DNA of 64,000 nucleotides from Terriglobia bacterium (GTDB lineage Bacteria > Acidobacteriota > Terriglobia > Terriglobales > Acidobacteriaceae). Positions 40,428-54,368 of the stretch are shown here, piece by piece; within the stretch, counting starts at the first letter, position 1; every line of letters starts with the position of its first letter. Both the position numbers and the translations under genes were made by a program. The notes under the pieces were generated by a model that worked only from the letters and a program-made list of their open reading frames with translations, ran no database searches and was not told where the DNA came from. The stretch covers positions 62,001 to 126,000 of the forward strand of contig JAIQGL010000010.1 of the NCBI GenBank assembly GCA_020072585.1. The letters run 5' to 3'.

Positions 40428-41912
40428 ATGAAAATTCACAAGCCTGATAAATGCTTTATCACCCTAATTATCTTAGTGGTCTTCTTGGCGGTTCATTCGT
40501 CTGCTGCAGTTGCCCAGGACGCGGCGGCTTTCAGTAAGACCCCAGCGATTCCGGGTTTTACTTTATCTCCGGACCGAGGCATATTCCTTGTGCTCTCGGA
40601 TATTCACTTTGACCCTTTTTCCGATCCTGTCCTCGCTCGAAAACTGGCTTCACATCCGGTGGAAAGATGGGAGGACGACTTCCATTCATCGTCGGCTGCG
40701 GGGTTTTCACAATATGGAGCTGACACCAATTATCCCCTTCTAGTTGCGGTGTTAAAGGCAGCGCAAGATTATGGCGTCAAGCAGCACTATGACTATGTCA
40801 TTGTGACGGGCGACTACCTTGCCCATGAATTCAAAAAACAATATCAGCAGCTGATCGGTAATGATGAAGCAGCGTTTCAGGCTTTTGTAATCAAGACCAT
40901 GATTTTTATTAGCCGCACGATTCAGGCGAGCTTTCCTTCACTGCCGGTGTTTGGAATTTTGGGAAATAATGATTCAGTTTGCGGCGATTACCGGCTTCGT
41001 CCCGGCTCGATCTTTCTCGATAGGATGGCAAAAGAATGGAAAGGAGTGGCATCTGATAAGGAAGCATACCGCGATTTCGCAGCTGGCGGATTTTATGCTG
41101 CTCCTCACCCGACTGTCCCAAATCATGAACTACTAATTCTAAATAGCACATTCTGGTCGGCTTCATATAATGATGCTTGCTCTCCGATTCCGACTGATCC
41201 AGGTTCAGCCGAGCTTGGGTGGCTGACGTGGAAGCTTTATCTGCTGCAGCTTAAAAAAAAGACGGCAACCCTCATCATGCACATACCTCCAGGAATAGAC
41301 GCATATAACTCTTCCCGTTCGGGTGCCTGCGGGCCGGCAATATCTTTATGGAATCCAAAATATGCCACCAACTTTTTACAAATTATTGCGACTTTTAAAA
41401 GCATATTGCGCGATGGTTATGCAGGCCACATGCACATGGATGACTTTCGTGTAATCAGGGACCTGGCAGGCAAACCTTTTTTCGAGATTCACTCTGTCCC
41501 TGCTATCAGTCCCAATTACAACAATAATCCTTCTTTTGAGATCGGTATCTATAGAAGAAGCGATGCTGGCTTGGTTGATTATGCAGTGATTTATTTGGCC
41601 AATTTGGCGAGCTTTAAAGATGCTAAGTCTGCTGTTTTGCCCTCGTGGCTAATTGAATATTCCGTTAATTCCGAGTATCACATTCCAGAATATGGCCCTG
41701 AAGCCGCGATGAAAATTGCTGTAGCAATCCGATCAGACGAGAACATGCGGTCCCAATATTTGCGTTTTTACAATGTGCAAAGCGCAAAACCTGCATCGGT
41801 GACGACCAATAACTGGCTCAGTTATTCCTGCGCTCAGACCGAGTTAACTCAGGAAGCGTTTAGCCAGTGTTCTTGCAAAAACACAGGACACGACACCAAG
41901 CCAGACAGATAG
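40428..41912 (+). CDS. Secreted calcineurin-like metallophosphoesterase (acid sphingomyelinase-like)
   Basis: A 494-residue phosphodiesterase. The N terminus (KCFITLIILVVFLAVHSSAAVAQD) is a signal peptide, so it acts outside the cytoplasm. All metal-binding motifs are present: DIH in LSDIHFD, GD in VTGDYL, GNN in ILGNNDS, MHIP and GHMH. The order and the long inserts match the acid-sphingomyelinase-like branch; related enzymes also cleave nucleotides or other phosphodiesters. It starts 78 bases after the Nudix gene on the same strand. The 3' end overlaps by 53 bases with an RHS gene fragment on the other strand. Confidence 0.85.
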   Translation: MKIHKPDKCFITLIILVVFLAVHSSAAVAQDAAAFSKTPAIPGFTLSPDRGIFLVLSDIHFDPFSDPVLARKLASHPVERWEDDFHSSSAAGFSQYGADTNYPLLVAVLKAAQDYGVKQHYDYVIVTGDYLAHEFKKQYQQLIGNDEAAFQAFVIKTMIFISRTIQASFPSLPVFGILGNNDSVCGDYRLRPGSIFLDRMAKEWKGVASDKEAYRDFAAGGFYAAPHPTVPNHELLILNSTFWSASYNDACSPIPTDPGSAELGWLTWKLYLLQLKKKTATLIMHIPPGIDAYNSSRSGACGPAISLWNPKYATNFLQIIATFKSILRDGYAGHMHMDDFRVIRDLAGKPFFEIHSVPAISPNYNNNPSFEIGIYRRSDAGLVDYAVIYLANLASFKDAKSAVLPSWLIEYSVNSEYHIPEYGPEAAMKIAVAIRSDENMRSQYLRFYNVQSAKPASVTTNNWLSYSCAQTELTQEAFSQCSCKNTGHDTKPDR

Positions 41913-42711
41913 AATTGAACCGCGACCATTCCTCTGGTGCAAACTCAGGCGGTTTACCAATCGGCTCATTAGCAAATCGATCAAAAGCTAACAATTTGCA
42001 GTATGAACTGTGGTCACCAGCGAAGAGGTAGTCGAAACTGTGCTGCGAAAGCCTCGGGCTTCTGCACAAGACCCCGGCTGAGCCACTCATTGTAACTTCT
42101 TCAGGAACCCGAAACGTATATAACTGACCTTCTGGATGATAGTGTGCCAAATCGGAATCGAAGCTGGTCGAAAGACTACGTCCTGCCGAAACACCCTCGC
42201 CGAGGTTCCCTTGATGAAATAAAGCGACATCATGCGCACCTTCGACCGAACCGTCGGCTATCGCAGTCCCAGCAAGATCTGCTGCTTCCTCGCCAACTAC
42301 TTCGTCGACAGCTGCCACGGCTGGTGCAGCAAGAATCATTGTATCGTAATGCGGGACGATACCAATTTGTCCCAAACGTTTTTCATTACCGATGCACCAA
42401 GACTCCGGGTATGTCCGACAGGTGTACTTGGAAGAATAAGGCTCATACCAGAACGCATGCCAGAAATCTTTCCACCACTTCTGGTTTTCTTTCCTGCCAG
42501 CAAAGATTTCCGATGGCACGGGCACTCCGCCACCCAGGCCTGTCGCGTCTTTGAGGTTGGTAGGGCTATCAGAAACATACGCATAGGAATTTACGCCGGC
42601 AGCAAATCCGAGCGGGTCCTGGCTGATAAATCTTCCCAACAGTGGGGAGTAGTAGCGTGCCCGGTAGTAATACAGTCCGTTAGCCTCATTTTCTCGCCCT
42701 GTGGGGCGCAA
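41860..42711 (-). pseudogene. RHS protein C-terminal fragment with possible ADP-ribosyltransferase-like toxin tail
   Basis: The 5' end starts inside the RHS core (GLYYYRARYYSPLLGRFISQ, then PTNLKDATGLG); all upstream repeats are missing. After the core, about 215 residues of cassette follow. The last part (ALFHQGNLGEGV, GRSLSTSFDSDLAHYHPEG, LYTFRVPEEV) has an STS motif and layout like ADP-ribosyltransferase toxins; this assignment is tentative. The tail ends in a Cys-rich stretch. It has no start of its own and no evident immunity partner, so it is a displaced RHS tip or an orphan cassette. Confidence 0.6.
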
Positions 42712-42761
42712 AAACCTCGTCAGACAGCAACGTGCTCATCCCAAAGAGATGCTGGCAAGGT

Positions 42762-43316
42762 CTAGATGTCATTGTCGGCTAGGAACCGACCAAGATCATT
42801 CGTCTCCAACCAGTGGTACAGGTGAACCTGATAGAGGTAGGAGGCCACAAGTTCCTCTCCCAGTTCGTGGGTTTCGCTGCACAAGAATGGGATTTGAAGT
42901 CCCGCCAGTACCGCGACCAACGATTGCGTAACACGATTCGGATTGGCAGCGGTGTGATCGTACGGCGACTTGACCCGGCTCAAGGTGCTCGTGACCACCA
43001 GAAGACGGTTCGGGTATTGGGCCATCCGCCGCAGTCGATTGATAAACACGCACCGGTCGGTCGTACAAGAATGAATGAGATCGGAGAGATCCTTCCGTTC
43101 TACTACACACATATCCTCCATGCCGGCAATGGAGTAATCTCCCAGCTTGAGTGCCGTGCGCTCAATGCCCGCGAACCAGCCTGCAAAGCGAGAAAAATCC
43201 AACGGATTCTGTTCGCGCGTATCTACCAGAAGAACTGGACGCGGAGTTTTGAGCTGTGTTCCACCACGTTCGGCGATGACCGGAACAATTGGTGGGGCTA
43301 CTGGCGCAGCTGTCAT
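42762..43316 (-). CDS. ERCC4-domain nuclease
   Basis: A 184-residue protein made almost only of an ERCC4 (XPF/Mus81-type) nuclease domain: LLVDTREQNPLDF, LKLGDYSIAG, CVVERKDLSDLIHS. The D, ERK and KD residues of the active site (Asp in VDTRE, and VERK) are present. Such stand-alone forms occur in phages and mobile elements and cut branched or single-stranded DNA. There is no helix-hairpin-helix domain. It lies between an RHS fragment and a transposase. Confidence 0.82.
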   Translation of the reverse strand: MTAAPVAPPIVPVIAERGGTQLKTPRPVLLVDTREQNPLDFSRFAGWFAGIERTALKLGDYSIAGMEDMCVVERKDLSDLIHSCTTDRCVFINRLRRMAQYPNRLLVVTSTLSRVKSPYDHTAANPNRVTQSLVAVLAGLQIPFLCSETHELGEELVASYLYQVHLYHWLETNDLGRFLADNDI

Positions 43317-44848: not shown

Positions 44849-47311
44849 TCATTCATATCGAAGAGCGATCATAGGATCCACGCGTGTAGCCCGGAGTGCT
44901 GGTAGATAGCAGGAAAAAAGTGATATCCCCGCCAAGAGCAGGGATACGGCTGTAAACGTAAGTGGATCTGTTGGCCGAACTCCATATAAAAAACTCGTCA
45001 TCAAACGAGTGACCATCAGCGAGGCCACAATGCCAATTACAATTCCGGCAACGACGAGCCGAACACCCTGGCCAATCACCATGCCAAACACGTTCCTGCG
45101 ATTGGCCCCAAGCGCCATCCTTATGCCGATTTCCGGGGTACGTTGGGTTACCGAGTACGAAATCACGCCATACAATCCAACTGATGCGAGCAACAGGGCC
45201 AATGCCGCAAATGATCCGAGCAAGAGCAATGAAAACCGTGGCCCTGCCATTGAACTCTTAACCACGGCCTGCAATGTTGCGAGCTTAGTGACCGGAATGT
45301 CTCGATCGAGTGAATAAATTGCTTTCTTCGTGCCGCCAGCCACTGATATGGGGTCAGACGCAGTTCGCAGCACAACGTGCATGGTCAACATAGAAGGATA
45401 CGGCTTTTGGGTATAGGGCACATACATCTCGGGGCCAGGGTCTTCTCGTAAAGAGATTTGCTTGACATCTCCCACGATCCCAACAATCGTCATAGCTGGA
45501 AACCGTAGGCTGCCAAGGCCAAGTTGTCTGCCTAACGGGTCTTCGCCCGGCCAGTATTTCTTCGCCATCGCGCTATTAATGATGGTTACCGGAACTGAAT
45601 CTGCGGTATCTGACTCAAGAAACTCGCGGCCGCGCAGGACCGGTGTTCCGACCGTGGAAAAGAAGCCGGGTGAGGCAATGTTGTAATTTGAGAATGGTTT
45701 GGCCTGATTGTCTGCGACGGGGTGGTCAGGAATGCGAATCACGCCACTCTCAGTGGCTCCATCCATCGGTACCGTATAGGCGATAGCCGCTGAACGAACG
45801 CCCGGAACTGACTGCAACTGCTGAAGTGCTCTTTGATAAAGCGCCACAATTCGATCTGTATCAGGGTATTTAGAGTCAGGAAGAGATAGTTCAAAAGTGA
45901 GAACCCGATCTGGATTGAAACCGCCGTCAACGCGGAGCAGGCGAAAGAAAGTTTGCATTAGCAAGCCCGCCGAGACCACCAGAACCAGCGCGAAAGCAAC
46001 TTCCAAAATCATGAGTGAGTTGCGGATTTTGGAACCCTTGGCACTTCCGCTCGTTCTCTGGCCACCTTCTTTGAGAGAATTGAACAGGTTCTCCCTTGCC
46101 GCGGAAATTGCGGGGGCCAGCCCGAATAAGATTCCGGTGATAAAAGTAATCCCGATGGTGAAGGCAAAGACCCAAAGGTGAAGACCAACCTCTCGTAGCC
46201 GAGGTACGTCTGTCGGTCCAAAGATTTTTAAGCAATAGATTGCCCCCGCCGCAACCAGCGTTCCCGCCAGCCCGCCACCCACTGCCAGCAGAACGCTTTC
46301 GATCAACAATTGCCGTATGATCCGAAACCTTCCTGCACCTAATGCTGCGCGTAACGTAAATTCTCGTTTGCGCCCAATTGAACGCGTTAGAAGCAAATTA
46401 GCAACGTTAGAGCAGCAAATGAGAAGGACCACGCCTACTGCTCCCATAAGCAAGAGTAGCGGGCGATGCATGTTTCCTGTGACCTGCGTAGTGAGTGGCG
46501 TTACACGAGAATTGAACCAGCCTTTGTATTTGGGAAACTCGACCTCCTCGCGCTTGGCAAATATATTCATCTCCTCCTGGGCGCTAGCGATCGTGATGCC
46601 CGGTCTCAGGCGGCCAATCACGGCGAGGTCAGCTGGTTGATTAGGCCGGGGCACCAAGGGAAGAGCCAGCGGCACCCAAAGTTCGGCTTCCCGTGGAAAG
46701 CTGAAACTTCCAGGCATTTCCTCGGCCCGAGGAAATGCAAAGCCGGAAGGCATCACTCCAACAACGGTATATGCTTCACCGTTCAAATCCATGGTATTTC
46801 CCAAAATATCTGTGCGGCCTCCAAACTGGCTTTGCCATACTGCATAGCTCAAGATCACTTCATGTTCGTGGCCCGGCTGGTCCTCTTCCATGGTGAAAGT
46901 GCGTCCCCACCCTGGCGAAATTCCTAGAGCAGAGAAAAAACCGGTGGATACTCGAAGTCCCTCCATCACGGTAGGCTCGCCTGACCCAGTGAGATTAAAA
47001 GAATCGCTCTTGAAAGCACCCAGACTTTGGAAGGTCTTGGATTCGTTTAAGAAAAGCCGGAAATCATGCAAGCCCCAGGGAAATTCGTCGTATCCAAGAT
47101 TTAATCCAGGAGGCACCAGCCGCCAGGGAATTACAATTTTCTCTGCCTCCGGGTAGGACAAGGGCTGCAGTAAGATCGCATTTACGACGCTGAATACAGC
47201 TACGCTGGCACCAATTCCCAAAGCCAGCGTCAATACTGCTACTGGCGTGATGCTGGAGGCCCTTGTATGTATGCGGAGGGCATATTTCAAATCCTGTAGC
47301 CAGGTGCTCAT
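44849..47311 (-). CDS. MacB/FtsX-type ABC permease without ATPase (acidobacterial duplicated orphan permease)
   Basis: An 820-residue inner-membrane protein with the duplicated MacB/FtsX layout: N-terminal helix (VAVLTLALGIGASVAVFSVVN), a periplasmic domain (to about residue 240), three helices near 275-400 (including LLLLMGAVGVVLLICCSNVANLLL), a second periplasmic domain (about 430-680), and three closing helices (FSLLLLGSFAALALLLASVGLYG, VVAGIVIGIVASLMV, FTAVSLLLAGISLFSCY). No ATPase gene is next to it, as is common for this group. It lies 143 bases downstream of the TPR gene on the same strand, so it could export the small peptide made at 50872. That role is inference. Confidence 0.85.
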   Translation of the reverse strand: MSTWLQDLKYALRIHTRASSITPVAVLTLALGIGASVAVFSVVNAILLQPLSYPEAEKIVIPWRLVPPGLNLGYDEFPWGLHDFRLFLNESKTFQSLGAFKSDSFNLTGSGEPTVMEGLRVSTGFFSALGISPGWGRTFTMEEDQPGHEHEVILSYAVWQSQFGGRTDILGNTMDLNGEAYTVVGVMPSGFAFPRAEEMPGSFSFPREAELWVPLALPLVPRPNQPADLAVIGRLRPGITIASAQEEMNIFAKREEVEFPKYKGWFNSRVTPLTTQVTGNMHRPLLLLMGAVGVVLLICCSNVANLLLTRSIGRKREFTLRAALGAGRFRIIRQLLIESVLLAVGGGLAGTLVAAGAIYCLKIFGPTDVPRLREVGLHLWVFAFTIGITFITGILFGLAPAISAARENLFNSLKEGGQRTSGSAKGSKIRNSLMILEVAFALVLVVSAGLLMQTFFRLLRVDGGFNPDRVLTFELSLPDSKYPDTDRIVALYQRALQQLQSVPGVRSAAIAYTVPMDGATESGVIRIPDHPVADNQAKPFSNYNIASPGFFSTVGTPVLRGREFLESDTADSVPVTIINSAMAKKYWPGEDPLGRQLGLGSLRFPAMTIVGIVGDVKQISLREDPGPEMYVPYTQKPYPSMLTMHVVLRTASDPISVAGGTKKAIYSLDRDIPVTKLATLQAVVKSSMAGPRFSLLLLGSFAALALLLASVGLYGVISYSVTQRTPEIGIRMALGANRRNVFGMVIGQGVRLVVAGIVIGIVASLMVTRLMTSFLYGVRPTDPLTFTAVSLLLAGISLFSCYLPALRATRVDPMIALRYE

Positions 47312-47454
47312 ATTCGCTCCTCCGTTATCTTAATGCGATTCGAATGCAGTCGAAAAGTCAAAATTTGGAAGCAGCATAACCGCAAATCGACATGCGGGAG
47401 ATCAATGCATTTTGCTCCACTCAAGACGTGCATTTCCATTTTAGATTGTAGTGC

Positions 47455-49449
47455 CTATCCGGAGATCGGCGATTGCAACGTGAGGGTGATTTTTTTCAGT
47501 CTAGCTTGAATTTCCAATCGATCCTCATCTGGAGGATTCAAACTTAGGGCCAATCGCAGATCCTGGGCGGCCTCGTGATATTGTGCGAGATTAGTAAGAA
47601 CAGTTGCACGGTTCTGATAGAGCTCTGCCCGGTCCGGTTTCAAGTCAACTGCCCGATTGAAGTCCTCCAGCGACAAGAGAAGATCGCCGACGAAATAGTA
47701 TGTTGCGCCACGGCTCGCCAGTACCTCCCACTGATTGGAATCAAGAGACAGCGCTTCAGTGTAGTCAGATATTGCTGCCTCCACGTGACCAGATTCTTCA
47801 TGGGCTTTGGCCCGTCCCACGAGCGCTAATAGCTGACGGGGTTGAAGATCAAGAGCTCGCGAATATGCTTCGATTGCTTCAGCCATGGCGCCCATCCGCC
47901 GGTGGCACTGCCCAAGGTTGGTAAAGACTTCAAAGTAAGGAGGGCTCAATTCTATGGCTTTGAGATAATCTCCTCGCGCCTCCTGGAGACGTCCTAGCCG
48001 GAGCAGCAGATTACCTCGCTCGTTATAGTATTCCGAATAGTTTGGATCCATCGCCATAACAACAGCATACTGATCGAGCGCCTCGCTGTAAGAACCAGTG
48101 GCGGAGTAAACCTGGGCAATGTTGTAAACCAGGACTGAGCGATGAAGCCGGTGTTTGTCAGCGCTGAGATGAGTGTTCAGCCGAACGATCCCGCTTTTGC
48201 ATAGATCCAGGGCTTCCTGGTGGCGGCCCTGGAAGCTACGGATCATGGCAAGACCATTGCGGTTGAACACTGAATGCAAGTGGCGCTCGCCATCCGGTAA
48301 ATCAGATTCCTCAATCGCCTCCAGGCCGCGATCAAGATACTCCTCACCCTTTGCAAAATCGCGAGGCTGACTATAGCGCGCATATAGCATCGCAATCATA
48401 TAGAAAACCTGTCCGCGCCAGCTGGGATGGCCCTCCACCGCCTTCAGGCCTTCTTGCTCAGCTAGATGAAGGCCGCCTTTCGCGTCCTGCAGGCCAGAAT
48501 AGCAGGCCAGCATTTTCATGATGATCGACCATCGCAAGTGCTCATTCTCCGGTTGATGTTCCGCGGCCAGAGACAAGATCCCCTCACTATAGCGAAGACC
48601 TTCTTCATAAAGGCCAAGGGGGTTACATATCTCCAGGGCCAGATATTTGTAATGGAGCACTTTTTCAGGGCGAGCCGCCAGCCGCCATAGCCTGATCAGT
48701 TGCGGCAGCTTTGCTTGCCTCTCAAGAAGGTCCTCACCTATCCGCTCCTCGAGGTCGCTCGCCATTTGCGCAGCCACGGCCCGATCCAATGGCACTGGCG
48801 GTTCGTCAAGCAGGCGGAGAGGCCTGACTGCAATTGGCTGAGATGAAAGGAATAACGTCCGGACTTTCTCCCCTTGACCACGCGCCACACATAGCAGCAG
48901 ATGAAAACCTAGCCGTTCGCCTCTGCGTCGCATCAACTCTTTGAAAAAATAACTGGTCATCGGTCCTGAAAAATCGTAGCTATCGCAGGCAATGACCCAC
49001 TGACTCTGGTTGCTGGTTGCACTCTTCCAATTATCAAGCAGGTCGATTAGTCCGTGCACAATACGGAATGCACGGTCGGCAGCATAGTTACGCGACCTTT
49101 CGCTGGGTGGGGCAAGGTCAGTAAGGCTTGGATTCCGTACGCTCAACTGTCGTCTTAATTGGGGGAGTACCTGCACCAATTCAAAAACATGCTGCTCTAC
49201 CAGATCGGGCCTTTGCGCTTGGATTTCCGGAAGAAGGTCGGAAAAGAATTCGTTGACTCCCGCCCACGGGCCGCCTAAATCAAAATCACAATCCAAATAG
49301 AACGTGCGTTCGCGTGACTTAGCGAGCTCTTGCAAATGATTCTCAAGCCAGTGCCGGCGATTTGCACCAGCCGCAGCTTCCACAATCAGCACGCGCTCCA
49401 AGCCGTGATTCACGGAAAGCTGATCCTCAAAACAGTGCGAGGCTGCCAT
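47455..49449 (-). CDS. Degenerate STAND-type NTPase domain plus TPR repeats
   Basis: About 664 residues. The first 290 residues follow the AAA/STAND order but have lost the nucleotide-binding motifs: the P-loop position reads VLIVEAAAGANRRHW (no GKT), and the Walker B position reads WVIACDSYDFSGPMTSYFF, followed by FHLLLCVARG like a sensor strand. The rest is TPR, clearest from about residue 400 to the end (YNERGNLLLRLGRLQEARGD, FTNLGQCHRRMGAMAEAIEAY). I choose ATG 49449, with GAAAGGA about 10 bases upstream; a GTG at 49467 lies within the protease gene. Spacing to the protease gene is 4 bases, so they are coupled. It is likely a scaffold, sensor or regulator of the peptide system. Confidence 0.75.
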   Translation of the reverse strand: MAASHCFEDQLSVNHGLERVLIVEAAAGANRRHWLENHLQELAKSRERTFYLDCDFDLGGPWAGVNEFFSDLLPEIQAQRPDLVEQHVFELVQVLPQLRRQLSVRNPSLTDLAPPSERSRNYAADRAFRIVHGLIDLLDNWKSATSNQSQWVIACDSYDFSGPMTSYFFKELMRRRGERLGFHLLLCVARGQGEKVRTLFLSSQPIAVRPLRLLDEPPVPLDRAVAAQMASDLEERIGEDLLERQAKLPQLIRLWRLAARPEKVLHYKYLALEICNPLGLYEEGLRYSEGILSLAAEHQPENEHLRWSIIMKMLACYSGLQDAKGGLHLAEQEGLKAVEGHPSWRGQVFYMIAMLYARYSQPRDFAKGEEYLDRGLEAIEESDLPDGERHLHSVFNRNGLAMIRSFQGRHQEALDLCKSGIVRLNTHLSADKHRLHRSVLVYNIAQVYSATGSYSEALDQYAVVMAMDPNYSEYYNERGNLLLRLGRLQEARGDYLKAIELSPPYFEVFTNLGQCHRRMGAMAEAIEAYSRALDLQPRQLLALVGRAKAHEESGHVEAAISDYTEALSLDSNQWEVLASRGATYYFVGDLLLSLEDFNRAVDLKPDRAELYQNRATVLTNLAQYHEAAQDLRLALSLNPPDEDRLEIQARLKKITLTLQSPISG

Positions 49450-49453
49450 TTGC

Positions 49454-50704
49454 TTACGTCCTTTCACCTCGTATTAGACTGCGAATCCATAGCGTCAATC
49501 CAAGGCTTACTGGCATTAGAAAGTAGAACGTGAACATGATAGCGTCGATAAAATTGCCGGGGTTGGCGGAGTAACCAGCTCTTACAGCACTGGCAAGGCT
49601 AACTGAATAACGGATGAACAACGGTATGGTCACTACGGAGAGAAGATATAGGGCTACGACTCTGCCGAGTACCCACACCGCAGCATACACACGGATCACC
49701 TTCCGTTCGGAAGCAGGTATCCCTGCCTGGTTCACCCTGCGGATCCAGGGTACTACGCGAGCCAACAGATTGCGCAGAAAGCCCTCGGTATCGCTGAGTA
49801 GACTCCTGCAATTGAACAAACTGGCGATCACATAATAGAAATCGGTACGAATAAACAGAAGGCATTGCCAAATAATGCGCATCACGTAAGTGAAGGATAA
49901 GGCGCGTACTACCTGTAAAACGAGCGCAGGCAGAGCCAACCAGTGGCGACTTTGCGCGAAGACAACCAGAAAAAGCAGAGCGCCAGAAACCGCATCTATG
50001 ATGGCGCCGGCAAATAACGGCAGATAACGCTGACGCTTGGGAACAGCCCACAGCCCCGTAAGATCGGTTTCCGCGACAACATGCCACAACCGGTGGCTGA
50101 TTCCCATGCGTGAGTTGATTCCTAGGGCGCGGGCTGCAATCAGATGTCCAAGCTCATGTATGAACACTGCGGCATAGCCTACGACAATGAGGATCATCCA
50201 GATGAGCGTCCGATGGTCAGCAAAATAAAGATCGCGAGGCCGCGGAGTTATTGATGGATCGTGAATTATCAATGCGAGCGCCACCGCAATCAGTACAGCG
50301 CTACCAACCAACACTGTCCGGCTAAAGAGCAGCTGCGCAAACGACTGAGAAATGTTCGTAAAGTGGTAGCGAACCTTTCGCGGCGGCTCCAGGCCGGTAC
50401 GGGCAACGCCACTGATCCCGCTTTCATTGCTACCCGAGGCCAACGTAACGATCCCCTTGGCTTCCATAAAGCCGAGGAACTCATCCAGATCAGGCAGTTC
50501 ACCGTGCCTTTTTTGATAGAGATCTGCGACCTGTCCAACACACTTACCATCGGCAAGGTCCTCTAACAATTCAACAGCTTCTGGCGGCACTGCCAAGAAA
50601 ACCCCGGTTTCAGCGCGCCCAATAATTATGTCTATTCCTTCCTGTTGCTGCGTGAAGGGCTCAACATTTACTATGGTGTCTCGCGTATATATAGGCATTG
50701 TCAT
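49454..50704 (-). CDS. PqqD-like domain fused to M50-family membrane metalloprotease
   Basis: A 416-residue protein. Residues about 20-90 resemble a PqqD-type peptide-binding domain (GVFLAVPPEAVELLEDL, VADLYQKRHGE, EFLGFMEAKGIVTL). From 125 on it is a multi-pass membrane protein of the M50 (site-2-protease-like) class: HELGH at 183-187 in a membrane helix, and the third zinc ligand in RTDFYY (286-291), as in the branch found beside peptide bacteriocin genes. A PqqD domain binds leader peptides, so the likely substrate is the 24-residue product of the gene 168 bases upstream. It would cut or mature that peptide at the membrane. The 5' leader contains a perfect 26-base palindrome. Confidence 0.8.
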   Translation of the reverse strand: MTMPIYTRDTIVNVEPFTQQQEGIDIIIGRAETGVFLAVPPEAVELLEDLADGKCVGQVADLYQKRHGELPDLDEFLGFMEAKGIVTLASGSNESGISGVARTGLEPPRKVRYHFTNISQSFAQLLFSRTVLVGSAVLIAVALALIIHDPSITPRPRDLYFADHRTLIWMILIVVGYAAVFIHELGHLIAARALGINSRMGISHRLWHVVAETDLTGLWAVPKRQRYLPLFAGAIIDAVSGALLFLVVFAQSRHWLALPALVLQVVRALSFTYVMRIIWQCLLFIRTDFYYVIASLFNCRSLLSDTEGFLRNLLARVVPWIRRVNQAGIPASERKVIRVYAAVWVLGRVVALYLLSVVTIPLFIRYSVSLASAVRAGYSANPGNFIDAIMFTFYFLMPVSLGLTLWIRSLIRGERT

Positions 50705-50712
50705 ATCAGGTA

Positions 50713-50738
50713 CTGGGAACCGCCCGGGCGGTTCCCAG
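50713..50738. promoter_or_regulatory. Perfect 26-base palindrome between peptide gene and protease gene
   Basis: The sequence is fully self-complementary, centred on CCCGGG, with GC-rich arms (CTGGGAACCGCCC). Transcribed from the minus strand it can form a very stable hairpin 8 bases before the protease start. There is no T-run, so it is not a standard intrinsic terminator. It may protect or end the peptide mRNA and lower translation of the protease gene. Confidence 0.7.
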
Positions 50739-50871
50739 CATGAATGCGGGCGTCATGGATTTTAGCCAGACTGAGAACTGCCCTGTTCTCTGGTCTGCCG
50801 CTCAACTCATCTACCGTAGAGCTCCCATGAAAATGACATTCCGCTGGCTGCTCCGCAGTAGACTATAGTGC

Positions 50872-50946
50872 TTATGCGGCGCAAGGAATGTAACCTGCTG
50901 CAGTTGTCTTCAAGGTTTCTACTTCACGAATAACGATTTTCTTCAT
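50872..50946 (-). CDS. Candidate precursor peptide, 24 residues
   Basis: A 25-codon gene below normal size limits. It begins MKKIVIREVE and ends TTAAGYIPCAA. A near-perfect ribosome site (AAAGGAGG) stands 8 bases before its ATG, stronger than any other in this window. The product would have a charged, strand-forming N-terminal part and a small, apolar C-terminal part with one Cys, one Pro and one Tyr, which fits a leader and core of a modified or processed peptide. The next genes on the strand are a PqqD-M50 protease, a STAND/TPR-like protein and a permease. No radical SAM, lanthionine or YcaO enzyme is seen. It may be a signal peptide-pheromone or bacteriocin-like product; function unknown. 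Confidence 0.65.
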   Translation of the reverse strand: MKKIVIREVETLKTTAAGYIPCAA

Positions 50947-50996
50947 GGGACTTTCCTCCTTTCTTTATGTAGTTACGACAGCCTTTCTATGCCTAC

Positions 50997-51025
50997 CATT
51001 TACTTAAGCATGCATAAGCTTGCAA
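50997..51025 (-). promoter_or_regulatory. Possible sigma-70-type promoter of the peptide gene
   Basis: On the minus strand TTGCAA at 51020-51025 and TAAATG at 50997-51002 are 17 bases apart, about 50 bases before the peptide start. An AT-rich, partly palindromic stretch (AAGCTTATGCATGCTT) lies between them and could bind a regulator. Match to consensus is moderate. Confidence 0.35.
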
Positions 51026-51187
51026 AAGTTGATGAGCGTTATAAATGTAAGTAGGACAGATTGCGAATATTGTTCCCATGTAATTCACAAACTATATCCC
51101 TGAGATATTTACGAGGCTATAGTTTGTGCAGTTAAATTTTTGCTTATAGTCTATTTTGGGAAAGCGTTTCAATATGGAAATGAACTA

Positions 51188-51532
51188 TTAGAATATTAGA
51201 GCCGTCAGATTAACAATCAAATGAGTTAACCTTAGCCGCTGTCGGTCGCCAAAATTGTGGTCTGCTGTAATTTCAACAGTTTCCACGAGCGAGCGTGTCA
51301 CGTCGTCTGCTATTCGCGTTGAATGGCAGACCGTGACGACACGATCTAAGAACTTAAGATTCTCGTCCAGCCCACCGATCTGAACTCCGAACTCTGCTGA
51401 GGATTTCGCTTCATCACTACCTAACCACGCAAGATCTTGATCGAATTCTTCCTCATGTTGCAAGAGATGTGTAGCAAGCTCCCGGATGCGGTCTCCCCAT
51501 GCCCGTATGGTCAATTTATTCGAACGGGTCAT
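51188..51532 (-). CDS. Short ORF coupled to IS-D transposase, 3' end replaced by IS-B end
   Basis: A 114-codon frame whose ATG overlaps the transposase stop by 4 bases. The first 75 residues read as a helical acidic protein (IRAWGDRIRELATHLLQHEE, FDQDLAWLGSDEA). From about 51312 onward the frame runs through the IS-B left end and reads IS-B sequence, so the original C terminus is lost. It may be an accessory gene of IS-D. The family is not recognised. Confidence 0.4.
   Translation of the reverse strand: MTRSNKLTIRAWGDRIRELATHLLQHEEEFDQDLAWLGSDEAKSSAEFGVQIGGLDENLKFLDRVVTVCHSTRIADDVTRSLVETVEITADHNFGDRQRLRLTHLIVNLTALIF
51240..51312 (+). repeat. IS-B left-end fragment
   Basis: About 70 bases match the left end of the complete IS-B (GGTCGCCAAAATT, ATTTCAACAGTTTCCACG, ACGTCGTCTGCTAT). 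It lies within the end of the short coupled ORF. Confidence 0.7.
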
Positions 51533-52596
51533 GCCGCCTCGCCCTCATAGAATTTGAGCAGACCACCAAGTCGCTCTCGGCATCGCACTCTTTCTCGCCG
51601 CTGAGTTGGCCGGCTTAGCTCCGGAAAAAGCAGTAAGTTCTCCTTGCCTTGATGATTCCGTTCCCTGTGATAATGCAACTCGTAGTGGTACAGCGCTCGT
51701 TTCAGCGAACGCTCGCCAAACAGAATCAGCTTCGAAAGACATTCCTCTTTGACCGACCTAACCCATCGCTCGGCAAATGCATTCAGATTCGGACTTTTGG
51801 GTGGCAGAGCAACAACCTTGATCTTTTCCGCCGCAACCAACTCACGAAACGATGCGCAATACTTGCTATCGCGATCATGAAGCAAATATTGGCAATTGGT
51901 TAGAAATCCAGTTCCTTCCATCGTCACGTTACGTGCCATTTGCTCCATCCACTCCTGATCGGGATGACGCGTGACACCCGCCAGATAAATTCGCCTGCTC
52001 TCCAGATGCAGGAAAAACAGCACATAGTATGTCTTCAATCCCTTGAGCGTAAGCACTTCCACCGTGAAGAAGTCTGTTCCAACAATCACTGCCATGTGCG
52101 CGCGAATGAAGTCCTTCCAACTCGTGGTCTGTTTTCGCTTCGGAGCTGGCGGAATGTCATGGTGTCTGAGGATGTTACCCACTGTTTGATCTGAGAGCTC
52201 ATAACCCAGATTGGTCATTGCTCCCTTAATTCGATCATCACCCCAACTCGGATTCTCCCTAGCTATTCGCACCACCAGACGCTCAATTTCCTCAGTCACG
52301 GGAGGGCGGCCCAGGGCTCTCCGGAACTTGGATCCATCGAATTTCTTCGCGATCAGTTCTCGATACCAGCGCAACAGCGTATCTGGTTTGGCAGCTGCTG
52401 CAACATCGGCCAGTGCTTTCCGCCCCAACCGATGAGCGATTTCGGCTAATGTTGTCTTTTCCGAGCTGGAGAGCAGCAACCTGCCTTTGATCTTTGCTTT
52501 AAGGATGCGGTTTTCTGCCGCCAAATATTCGTTCCTGAGTAACAGTTCCTGGTCCACTGTTCCTGTGATGTATGCCAACATACGCGCCCAGATCAT
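51529..52596 (-). CDS. IS-D transposase, integrase-core (DDE) type
   Basis: A 355-residue intact transposase. It has an N-terminal helical part (LLRNEYLAAENRILKAKIKG), a helix-turn-helix segment (ENPSWGDDRIKGAMTNLGYE), and a DDE core: VGTDFFTVEVLT (Asp), LHDRDSKYC (Asp), NAFAERWVRSVKEECLSK (Glu). It is different from IS-A, IS-B and IS-C. Terminal repeats were not identified. It lies between the peptide system and the XRE/S-4TM pair. Confidence 0.85.
   Translation of the reverse strand: MIWARMLAYITGTVDQELLLRNEYLAAENRILKAKIKGRLLLSSSEKTTLAEIAHRLGRKALADVAAAAKPDTLLRWYRELIAKKFDGSKFRRALGRPPVTEEIERLVVRIARENPSWGDDRIKGAMTNLGYELSDQTVGNILRHHDIPPAPKRKQTTSWKDFIRAHMAVIVGTDFFTVEVLTLKGLKTYYVLFFLHLESRRIYLAGVTRHPDQEWMEQMARNVTMEGTGFLTNCQYLLHDRDSKYCASFRELVAAEKIKVVALPPKSPNLNAFAERWVRSVKEECLSKLILFGERSLKRALYHYELHYHRERNHQGKENLLLFPELSRPTQRRERVRCRERLGGLLKFYEGEAA

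Positions 52597-54291: not shown

Positions 54292-54368
<77 letters not shown>

Follow-up and report, generated by a model that had tools for sequence, protein, structure and literature searches.

Does a reading frame of 24 codons in front of a membrane protease gene encode the precursor of a ribosomal peptide and, if so, which of its neighbors belong with it? The locus lies in the window analyzed here, 64,000 nucleotides of a Terriglobia bacterium (contig JAIQGL010000010.1, positions 62,001 to 126,000), where the minus strand of 44849-50946 carries, in order, a peptide open reading frame (ORF), a protein of the M50 peptidase family, a tetratricopeptide repeat (TPR) protein and an ADOP permease (Table 1). 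The original prediction, made from the letters alone, held that the peptide is cut by the protease, sensed or delivered with the TPR protein, and exported by the permease. Its account of the genes is borne out: the tiny gene with its Shine-Dalgarno (SD) sequence is present, and 4 nt separate the M50 stop from the start of the TPR gene (ATG at 49449). The promoter-like pair that it placed upstream was not recovered, there being no site in a sigma-70 consensus scan of 50400-51700 (other promoter types fall outside such a scan). Its interpretation stands in part: the peptide as partner of the protease and TPR protein finds support, the promoter and the permease as exporter do not.

A search for short ORFs upstream of protease homologues had been proposed as the way to check the prediction. 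The protease has its three closest relatives in Lysobacterales, at 38–40% identity, and in each a conserved ORF with the same leader lies directly upstream of the M50 gene. The first, on a contig from a metagenome-assembled genome and the sole protease relative in the genome-contig collection, has MKKFQIREVETVKTTAAMYECRVCFPDWLCDIIEGPQD just upstream of the protease and a TPR gene just downstream; two further full-length copies lie on contigs of 336 kb and 282 kb. Window and relatives share the leader MKK-[FI]-x-[VI]-REVET-[VL]-KTT-[AS]-A-x-Y, which in the window reads MKKIVIREVETLKTTAA and occurs as a single copy in the whole genome. All three Lysobacterales peptides conform to MKKF-[QV]-[IV]-REVETVKTT-[AS]-AMYECR, the window counterpart being MKKIVIREVETLKTTAAGYIPCAA. 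The core sequence of the window is unlike that of the relatives, as expected for a precursor.

Conservation extends to the level of codons. The ratio of nonsynonymous to synonymous substitution rates (dN/dS) in the leader was defined in four of six pairwise comparisons, with values of 0.11, 0.03, 0.20 and 0.07, and in all six the proportion of nonsynonymous differences (pN, 0.02–0.17) lay below that of synonymous differences (pS, 0.46–0.89). Synonymous sites are near saturation in the two comparisons without a defined ratio (pS 0.87–0.89; pN 0.10–0.16). Within Lysobacterales, constraint is seen on the leader half and the core half alike. Thus neither of the outcomes named beforehand as fatal to the prediction, homologues without an upstream ORF or a frame not conserved by codon, is seen in the three closest relatives; the first does describe M50 relatives linked to ThiF on Streptomyces plasmids, to which we return. 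We conclude that the predicted peptide gene is real, and the data support its peptide, conserved and under selection, as the partner of both protease and TPR protein. A short precursor under codon-level selection beside its putative enzymes is one hallmark of a ribosomally synthesized and post-translationally modified peptide (RiPP), and the locus shows it as far as sequence can tell. A scan of 11 peptides gave no match to NCBIfam and one chance-level match to Pfam (E 0.089).

The original prediction described the 416-amino acid (aa) protein as a PqqD-like domain fused to an M50 protease, and both halves of this description are supported. The Pfam M50 match has an E-value of 1.8e-5 and 24.6 bits, under the gathering score of 27.2 bits. 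H183, E184, H187 and D288 are invariant in all 10 M50 proteins aligned, giving the HExxH motif and distal aspartate of site-2-type proteases; D288 is the probable zinc ligand. The N-terminal domain has no sequence-level match in Pfam or NCBIfam and was recognized by fold search. Its region of the AlphaFold2 model, where the N-terminus is usable, has block means of 60–86 in predicted local distance difference test (pLDDT). VIA returned Z-scores of 10.2 for TbiB1, 10.1 for lasso B1 and 9.1 for PqqD, all within residues 1-90, with root-mean-square deviations of 2.2–2.5 over 79–86 residues; a Z of 8.4 to a methyltransferase domain (8hkr) makes the margin of the RiPP recognition element (RRE) modest. 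Foldseek gave probabilities of 1.00 for TbiB1 (E 0.03) and 0.99 for PqqD (E 0.62), and its first seven matches, all at E of at least 0.03, are presumably RREs or RRE-bearing RiPP enzymes. The model thus predicts a winged helix of about 80–90 residues, beta strands followed by three helices, as in the RRE/PqqD fold. Its co-occurrence with the conserved leader is what suggests that the RRE binds that leader. Two matches from a Protein Data Bank sequence search with the protease (E 0.1–0.3) were taken as chance.

Querying plasmids with the TPR protein led to loci that have no annotated M50 gene yet carry a short ORF before the TPR gene. The 22 loci assembled (the window, L002, L014-L018, with L016 taken together with L030, L020, L024-L029 and L032-L039) span Pseudomonadota, Bacillota, Actinomycetota and Fusobacteriota in addition to the window; L025 and L039 carry no annotation, and flank lengths differ, the absence of a neighbor holding within the fetched flanks. 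In 20 of the 22, the protease or TPR gene has in front of it a short precursor-like ORF, of 20–43 aa except for one of 72. Before the TPR gene it reads MKTVKITKKVVKASNAVMYSGN in Priestia, MKKVKVKATPVKAANAVVYSGN in Bacillus badius, MKKKIAETNTVIRTTTPYTGTV in Rhizobium, MKKKIAETTTVIRTTTPYTGTV in Mesorhizobium, MKKSMLKKLPKLNKKVRTTTPYQAA in Vibrio, MKVKVSEKQDTVRTTTSYVAG in Streptomyces NBC_00503 and, in three copies, MKTVVIKKNSVRAKVVLGYN in Exiguobacterium; the Agrobacterium ORF reads MKKKVALSKASIRTTTPYTGTV. The 72-aa ORF of Microvirga ends in IRTTTPYTGTV, a C-terminus conserved across four genera among rhizobia and their relatives. A tyrosine stands at residue 18–22 in 17 of 20 peptides, or in 18 when that of Microvirga, which lies in the same C-terminal motif, is counted. 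Exiguobacterium has an SD before each of its three copies, among which the differences are 6–8 synonymous and no nonsynonymous changes. A plasmid of Streptomyces NBC_01450 repeats the order of the window, peptide-M50-TPR, with a similar leader; its peptide is annotated at 57 aa and ends MRKISVRRTEPIKVTSAPFSHQPAIVPV.

To what extent would such ORFs arise by chance? We searched the 400 nt upstream of the operon in 19 loci, leaving aside L016, which runs over the start of its record, L025, where the start of the gene is uncertain, and L038, whose TPR gene is fragmented, and compared the result with 50 shuffles and 2000 random windows, those near the true site being skipped and counted as misses. 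An SD-led ATG ORF of 18–45 aa was found in 15 of 19 loci, as against a shuffle mean of 2.48 (maximum 8) and 169 of 2000 random windows; one of the 15, NBC_01450 (L020), passes this first filter only through an unrelated ORF, its own peptide having none of the SD words and so counting as a miss. Adding a basic N-terminus left 14 of 19 (shuffle mean 0.26, maximum 3; 14 random windows), and adding Tyr or Phe left 13 (mean 0.06, maximum 1; 5 random windows). The strictest filter, M[KRE], at least four K/R in residues 2–16 and Y/F at 17–23, was shaped on the first loci, which makes the eight loci fetched after the idea had formed the cleaner test: the ORF is present in six (Streptobacillus, two Pantoea species, Klebsiella, Listeria and Nonomuraea).

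A hairpin usually lies in the gap between the ORF and the next gene. The window hairpin with its flanks folds at -25.3 kcal/mol, and none of 30 shuffles was as strong. Among 19 such gaps (L016, L025, L037 and L038 omitted; L022, a locus of Priestia koreensis linked to ThiF and lacking an annotated TPR gene, included) 18 were testable, that of Listeria being 3 nt long; the hairpin beats all 30 shuffles in 15 and 29 of 30 in two more. In the window it is possibly a stabilizer or partial terminator. A terminator that separates the microcin C precursor gene from the enzyme genes is described as raising the precursor transcript (PMC6495379).

The only gene common to all annotated loci is that of the TPR protein. 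By gene content, what the family has in common is the TPR protein, and the protease is an accessory confined to one branch, a point that the original prediction overlooked. The TPR model has a mean pLDDT of 79.3 and a predicted TM-score of 0.73, is good in the TPR part and resembles the TPR superhelix of O-GlcNAc transferase and designed TPRs, a likeness that indicates a repeat fold and no particular function. Across 18 aligned proteins, one cut by a contig end, R119, Y349, R357, F394, N397, A412 and N442 are invariant. The N-terminal domain alternates strands and helices. Its earlier description as STAND (signal transduction ATPases with numerous domains)-like draws some support from weak AAA_16 matches in relatives (E 1e-4 in L015; 0.05–0.06 in L016 and L028). 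The window domain itself has no match, and where Walker A would read G-x4-GK-[ST] it reads AAAGANRRHW, the lysine missing; the P-loop is eroded in the window and absent in Bacilli. A defense library gave weak matches within the TPR part only (TPR, PrimPol and Avs3a models; E 6e-4 to 7e-3). On the Vibrio plasmid (L024:3251-5520) the annotation splits the TPR gene into two overlapping ORFs, and the gene may be frameshifted or mis-sequenced.

Neighboring genes vary by branch. The TPR gene is accompanied by LysE in Rhizobium; by a major facilitator superfamily (MFS) gene in Agrobacterium, Listeria and Acinetobacter; by MFS and hydrolase genes in Pantoea and Klebsiella; by a hydrolase and an ATP-binding cassette (ABC) gene in Streptobacillus; by MFS, prolyl oligopeptidase-like and ATP-grasp genes in Streptomyces NBC_00503; and by MFS, beside ThiF and a methyltransferase, in Exiguobacterium. 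No annotated partner directly follows it in Mesorhizobium. In Bacilli it stands with a small protein, an O-methyltransferase and MFS; on plasmids L014, L026 and L029 a protein of 77–84 aa adjoins the O-methyltransferase gene, and the two scanned have no Pfam match. A plasmid of Priestia koreensis (L022:4000-8176) has three tandem 21-aa ORFs MKKIVVRKLATVTVPQLRPGT, an SD before each, preceding ThiF, a solute-binding-like protein, an M50 relative and MFS; the copies differ by at most 1 nt and may be a recent duplication.

Taken together, these loci probably form a RiPP-like family that has not been described before: its TPR protein would carry the peptide or modify it, and in the branch of the window a site-2-type protease fused to an RRE would cut it. 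The precursor would comprise a leader of about 11–16 residues and a short C-terminal core (GYIPCAA or near it in the window), and the hairpin 3' of its gene may raise its level through mRNA protection or reduced read-through. The TPR superhelix would bind the precursor and either carry it or join in its chemistry. In the window's branch the N-terminal RRE would bind the REVETxKT leader and the zinc site would cut the peptide, the core being released at the membrane; other branches have no protease and possess exporters of MFS, LysE or ABC type, in some cases together with a hydrolase, a methyltransferase or ThiF. A bolder version, which we hold only tentatively and would sooner doubt than accept, is that of a tiny-peptide class in at least four phyla, on plasmids and transposon-bordered segments, whose TPR protein, alone universal, does the central step on the tyrosine motif, be it new chemistry or chaperoned hand-over, while proteases, exporters, methyltransferases and ThiF are interchangeable add-ons.

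Several observations weigh against a RiPP-like family so defined. No recognized modification enzyme occurs among 10 window proteins scanned against Pfam, as the original prediction had itself remarked. The five ORFs scanned beside the Lysobacterales TPR gene include no exporter and no recognized modification enzyme (two have Pfam matches, to an AraC-type regulator and a beta-lactamase family), and neither the Lysobacterales copies nor the window has an identified exporter. The Lysobacterales peptides have none of the required SD words and so count as misses in the upstream-ORF control. The peptides of Streptomyces NBC_01450 (Phe19) and Nonomuraea have no tyrosine; a 28-aa reading of the former starts at an inner ATG that has no SD, and its gap holds no special hairpin (24 of 30 shuffles as strong). 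Two Acinetobacter lwoffii TPR loci (L037, L038) have no short ORF upstream; they come from two plasmids of one strain, one with its TPR gene in pieces and one with MFS. The distant M50 relatives on Streptomyces plasmids (L003, L005, L021) lie directly after a ThiF adenylyltransferase, with no recognisable tiny peptide. Outside the RRE the protease model is poor (mean pLDDT 59 overall), and peptides so short align weakly between branches, which leaves a single origin unproven. Two side observations concern these loci: a BTAD regulator also precedes in two of the ThiF-linked Streptomyces loci, and a 25-aa ORF, MKLLVSSPAIVKVSYKTAYALKVEA, lies on the minus strand of L037:5440-5760, opposite to and between the TPR and MFS genes, where it might be either a precursor that has moved or a product of chance.

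TPR proteins are classic peptide receptors, and if the peptide were a signal, matured and released by the protease, then the TPR protein could be its receptor, controlling expression or activity much as RRNPP proteins do. The invariant R357, N397 and N442, which we take to resemble the backbone-clamping residues of other TPR receptors, fit this idea, as do sub-cut-off regulator matches (BTAD, E 0.0015, in the window; Regulator_TrmB, E 0.004, in L028). Yet the TPR proteins scanned have no helix-turn-helix match, so that the RRNPP pairing of such a domain with TPRs is missing; the peptides are short, with no Sec signal by eye; the exporters are of MFS, LysE or ABC type; and the hydrolase, O-methyltransferase and ThiF partners of other branches suggest chemistry. 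We regard signaling as unlikely.

Position invites another explanation, in which the ORF is a regulatory upstream ORF, its product an arrest or attenuator peptide for the downstream genes and the hairpin part of an attenuation switch. It lies directly upstream in 20 of 22 loci, a strong hairpin follows in most testable gaps and its C-terminal residues are conserved. An arrest peptide would, however, hardly account for three full Exiguobacterium copies with their own SDs and synonymous divergence only, for the three (maybe recently duplicated) copies of Priestia koreensis, for an RRE fold on the adjacent protease or for constraint on both halves of the Lysobacterales peptides, and we consider it very improbable. 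The peptide might instead be a pearlin-like scaffold, a small molecule being built on its C-terminus and cut off by the M50 protease. TglG and TmoG, both M50 proteases, are described as releasing C-terminal amino acids from carrier peptides (PMC10885120), and LysE and MFS exporters suit small products; but no peptide aminoacyl-tRNA ligase or similar enzyme was found among the window proteins scanned, and a C-terminus kept across four genera is at odds with a bare scaffold, so that a carrier seems quite unlikely. The RiPP-like family remains our preferred explanation.

Parts of the arrangement have precedents. As in daptide MpaP, described as an RRE fused to an intramembrane site-2 protease, the window has an N-terminal RRE on an M50/site-2-type protease beside a short precursor gene; unlike daptides, its peptide has neither the ELExMEAP leader motif nor a C-terminal Thr (PMC10036551), and in place of an oxidative decarboxylase, aminotransferase or methyltransferase, none of which is among the proteins scanned, it has a TPR protein. 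Microcin C-like systems, one MccB clade of which is described with precursor genes of 17–56 aa (PMC6495379), share short precursors and, in the Exiguobacterium and Priestia koreensis loci, ThiF and MFS partners; the scanned window proteins include no ThiF (MccB), with TPR and RRE-M50 instead, and neither 'TPR' nor 'tetratricopeptide' occurs in the main text of PMC6495379. EpeP, TglG and TmoG are likewise M50 proteases of the membrane that have small ribosomal peptides as substrates (PMC10885120); the window differs from epipeptide and pearlin systems in its RRE fusion and TPR partner and in having no radical S-adenosylmethionine enzyme or tRNA ligase among the proteins scanned. TPR proteins are reported in RiPP clusters as ammosamide AmmC2 and the TPR-containing putative arginase PbsE (PMC12424672, PMC12257519), where they stand beside established modification enzymes, whereas here the TPR protein is the sole gene seen in all annotated loci; graspetide loci are described with TPR proteins of unclear role (PMC8939145). 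The RRE–site-2-protease fusion is thus already known from daptides, and the TPR-linked RiPP-like family would be undescribed: among the matches listed from the open-access literature, with subscription papers mostly outside, none concerned it. Text matches to the peptide strings were, among those listed, only 'irevet' in infection and veterinary papers, and were taken as chance.

The protease is rare. Among 200 genomes of the window's family, and likewise among 396 of the phylum, a single one has it (the window's own genome both times; the sets overlap). It was also found full-length in 3 of 348 Lysobacterales genomes, in 1 of 321 of the class (the already known copy) and in 3 of 197 of the family of G894 (the same three copies). 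Four weak partial Lysobacterales matches (E 2e-10 to 8e-9) have no leader motif within 1.5-kb flanks. The TPR profile matched 1 of 299 genomes in the phylum of G566, a figure that says little with three candidates scored per genome. The full TPR query matched 105 plasmid records; 11 of the best 20 were fetched (H22-H30, Nonomuraea via H101 and NBC_01450 via H65), the other nine being judged generic TPR proteins, and a second search supplied 18 of 26 records, the remaining eight being further records of the same species. There was no protease relative in viral contigs, no match to the window TPR N-terminal part in phage records or, used alone, in plasmids, and none to the Klebsiella segment in E. 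coli genomes at megablast level.

If the preferred explanation is true, then genome mining keyed on known modification enzymes would miss a family of ribosomal peptides. Its members come from environmental genomes as well as from plasmids of Klebsiella, Pantoea, Listeria, Bacillus, rhizobia and Streptomyces. At sizes down to 20 residues, the precursors are easy to synthesize and test, and the minimal rhizobial form (peptide, TPR protein and exporter) poses the question of how a TPR protein acts on a peptide.

Table 1. Features of the peptide locus and its borders in the window (positions in the 64,000-nucleotide stretch).
Feature	Position	Strand	Remarks
Precursor-like peptide gene, 24 residues	50872..50946	-	encodes MKKIVIREVETLKTTAAGYIPCAA
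Shine-Dalgarno AAAGGAGG	50955..50962	-	8 nt before peptide-gene ATG
Perfect GC-rich hairpin between peptide gene and M50 gene	50713..50738	-	no U-tract by eye
RRE-fused M50/site-2-type membrane protease, 416 aa (predicted)	49454..50704	-	HELGH 183-187, Asp288
RRE/PqqD-like domain, protease residues ~10-90	50435..50677	-	fold comparison of model
TPR protein, 664 aa, STAND/AAA-like N-domain without Walker-A lysine	47455..49449	-	
ADOP-family permease, downstream neighbor	44849..47311	-	TIGR03434 match; membership in system doubtful
Transposase (rve_3), upstream border of segment	51529..52596	-	Pfam
Transposase (rve_3), downstream border of segment	43374..44351	-	Pfam

With regard to the permease, the original prediction was right about identity and finds no support on function; overall, the finding is stronger than it could know, peptide and family being real, and weaker here, where the proposed exporter is unsupported. 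The match to TIGR03434 is clear (E 1.4e-281), and the gene lies 143 nt beyond the TPR gene. There are 38 ADOP matches in the 6.9-Mb genome, among them pieces of a single gene; many ADOP permeases suggest Acidobacteriota. A tblastn search that took the window permease as query drew no relative from any of 20 related loci, the best E being 0.6. With so many matches in the genome and none in related loci, we regard its membership in the system as doubtful and treat it as a neighbor. Elsewhere in the window, a protein with N-terminal RHS-like repeats (by eye; no Pfam match) at 41860-43316 adjoins an ERCC4-domain protein, and a tRNA-Pro (cgg) gene lies at 54292-54368, near the transposase-bordered segment.

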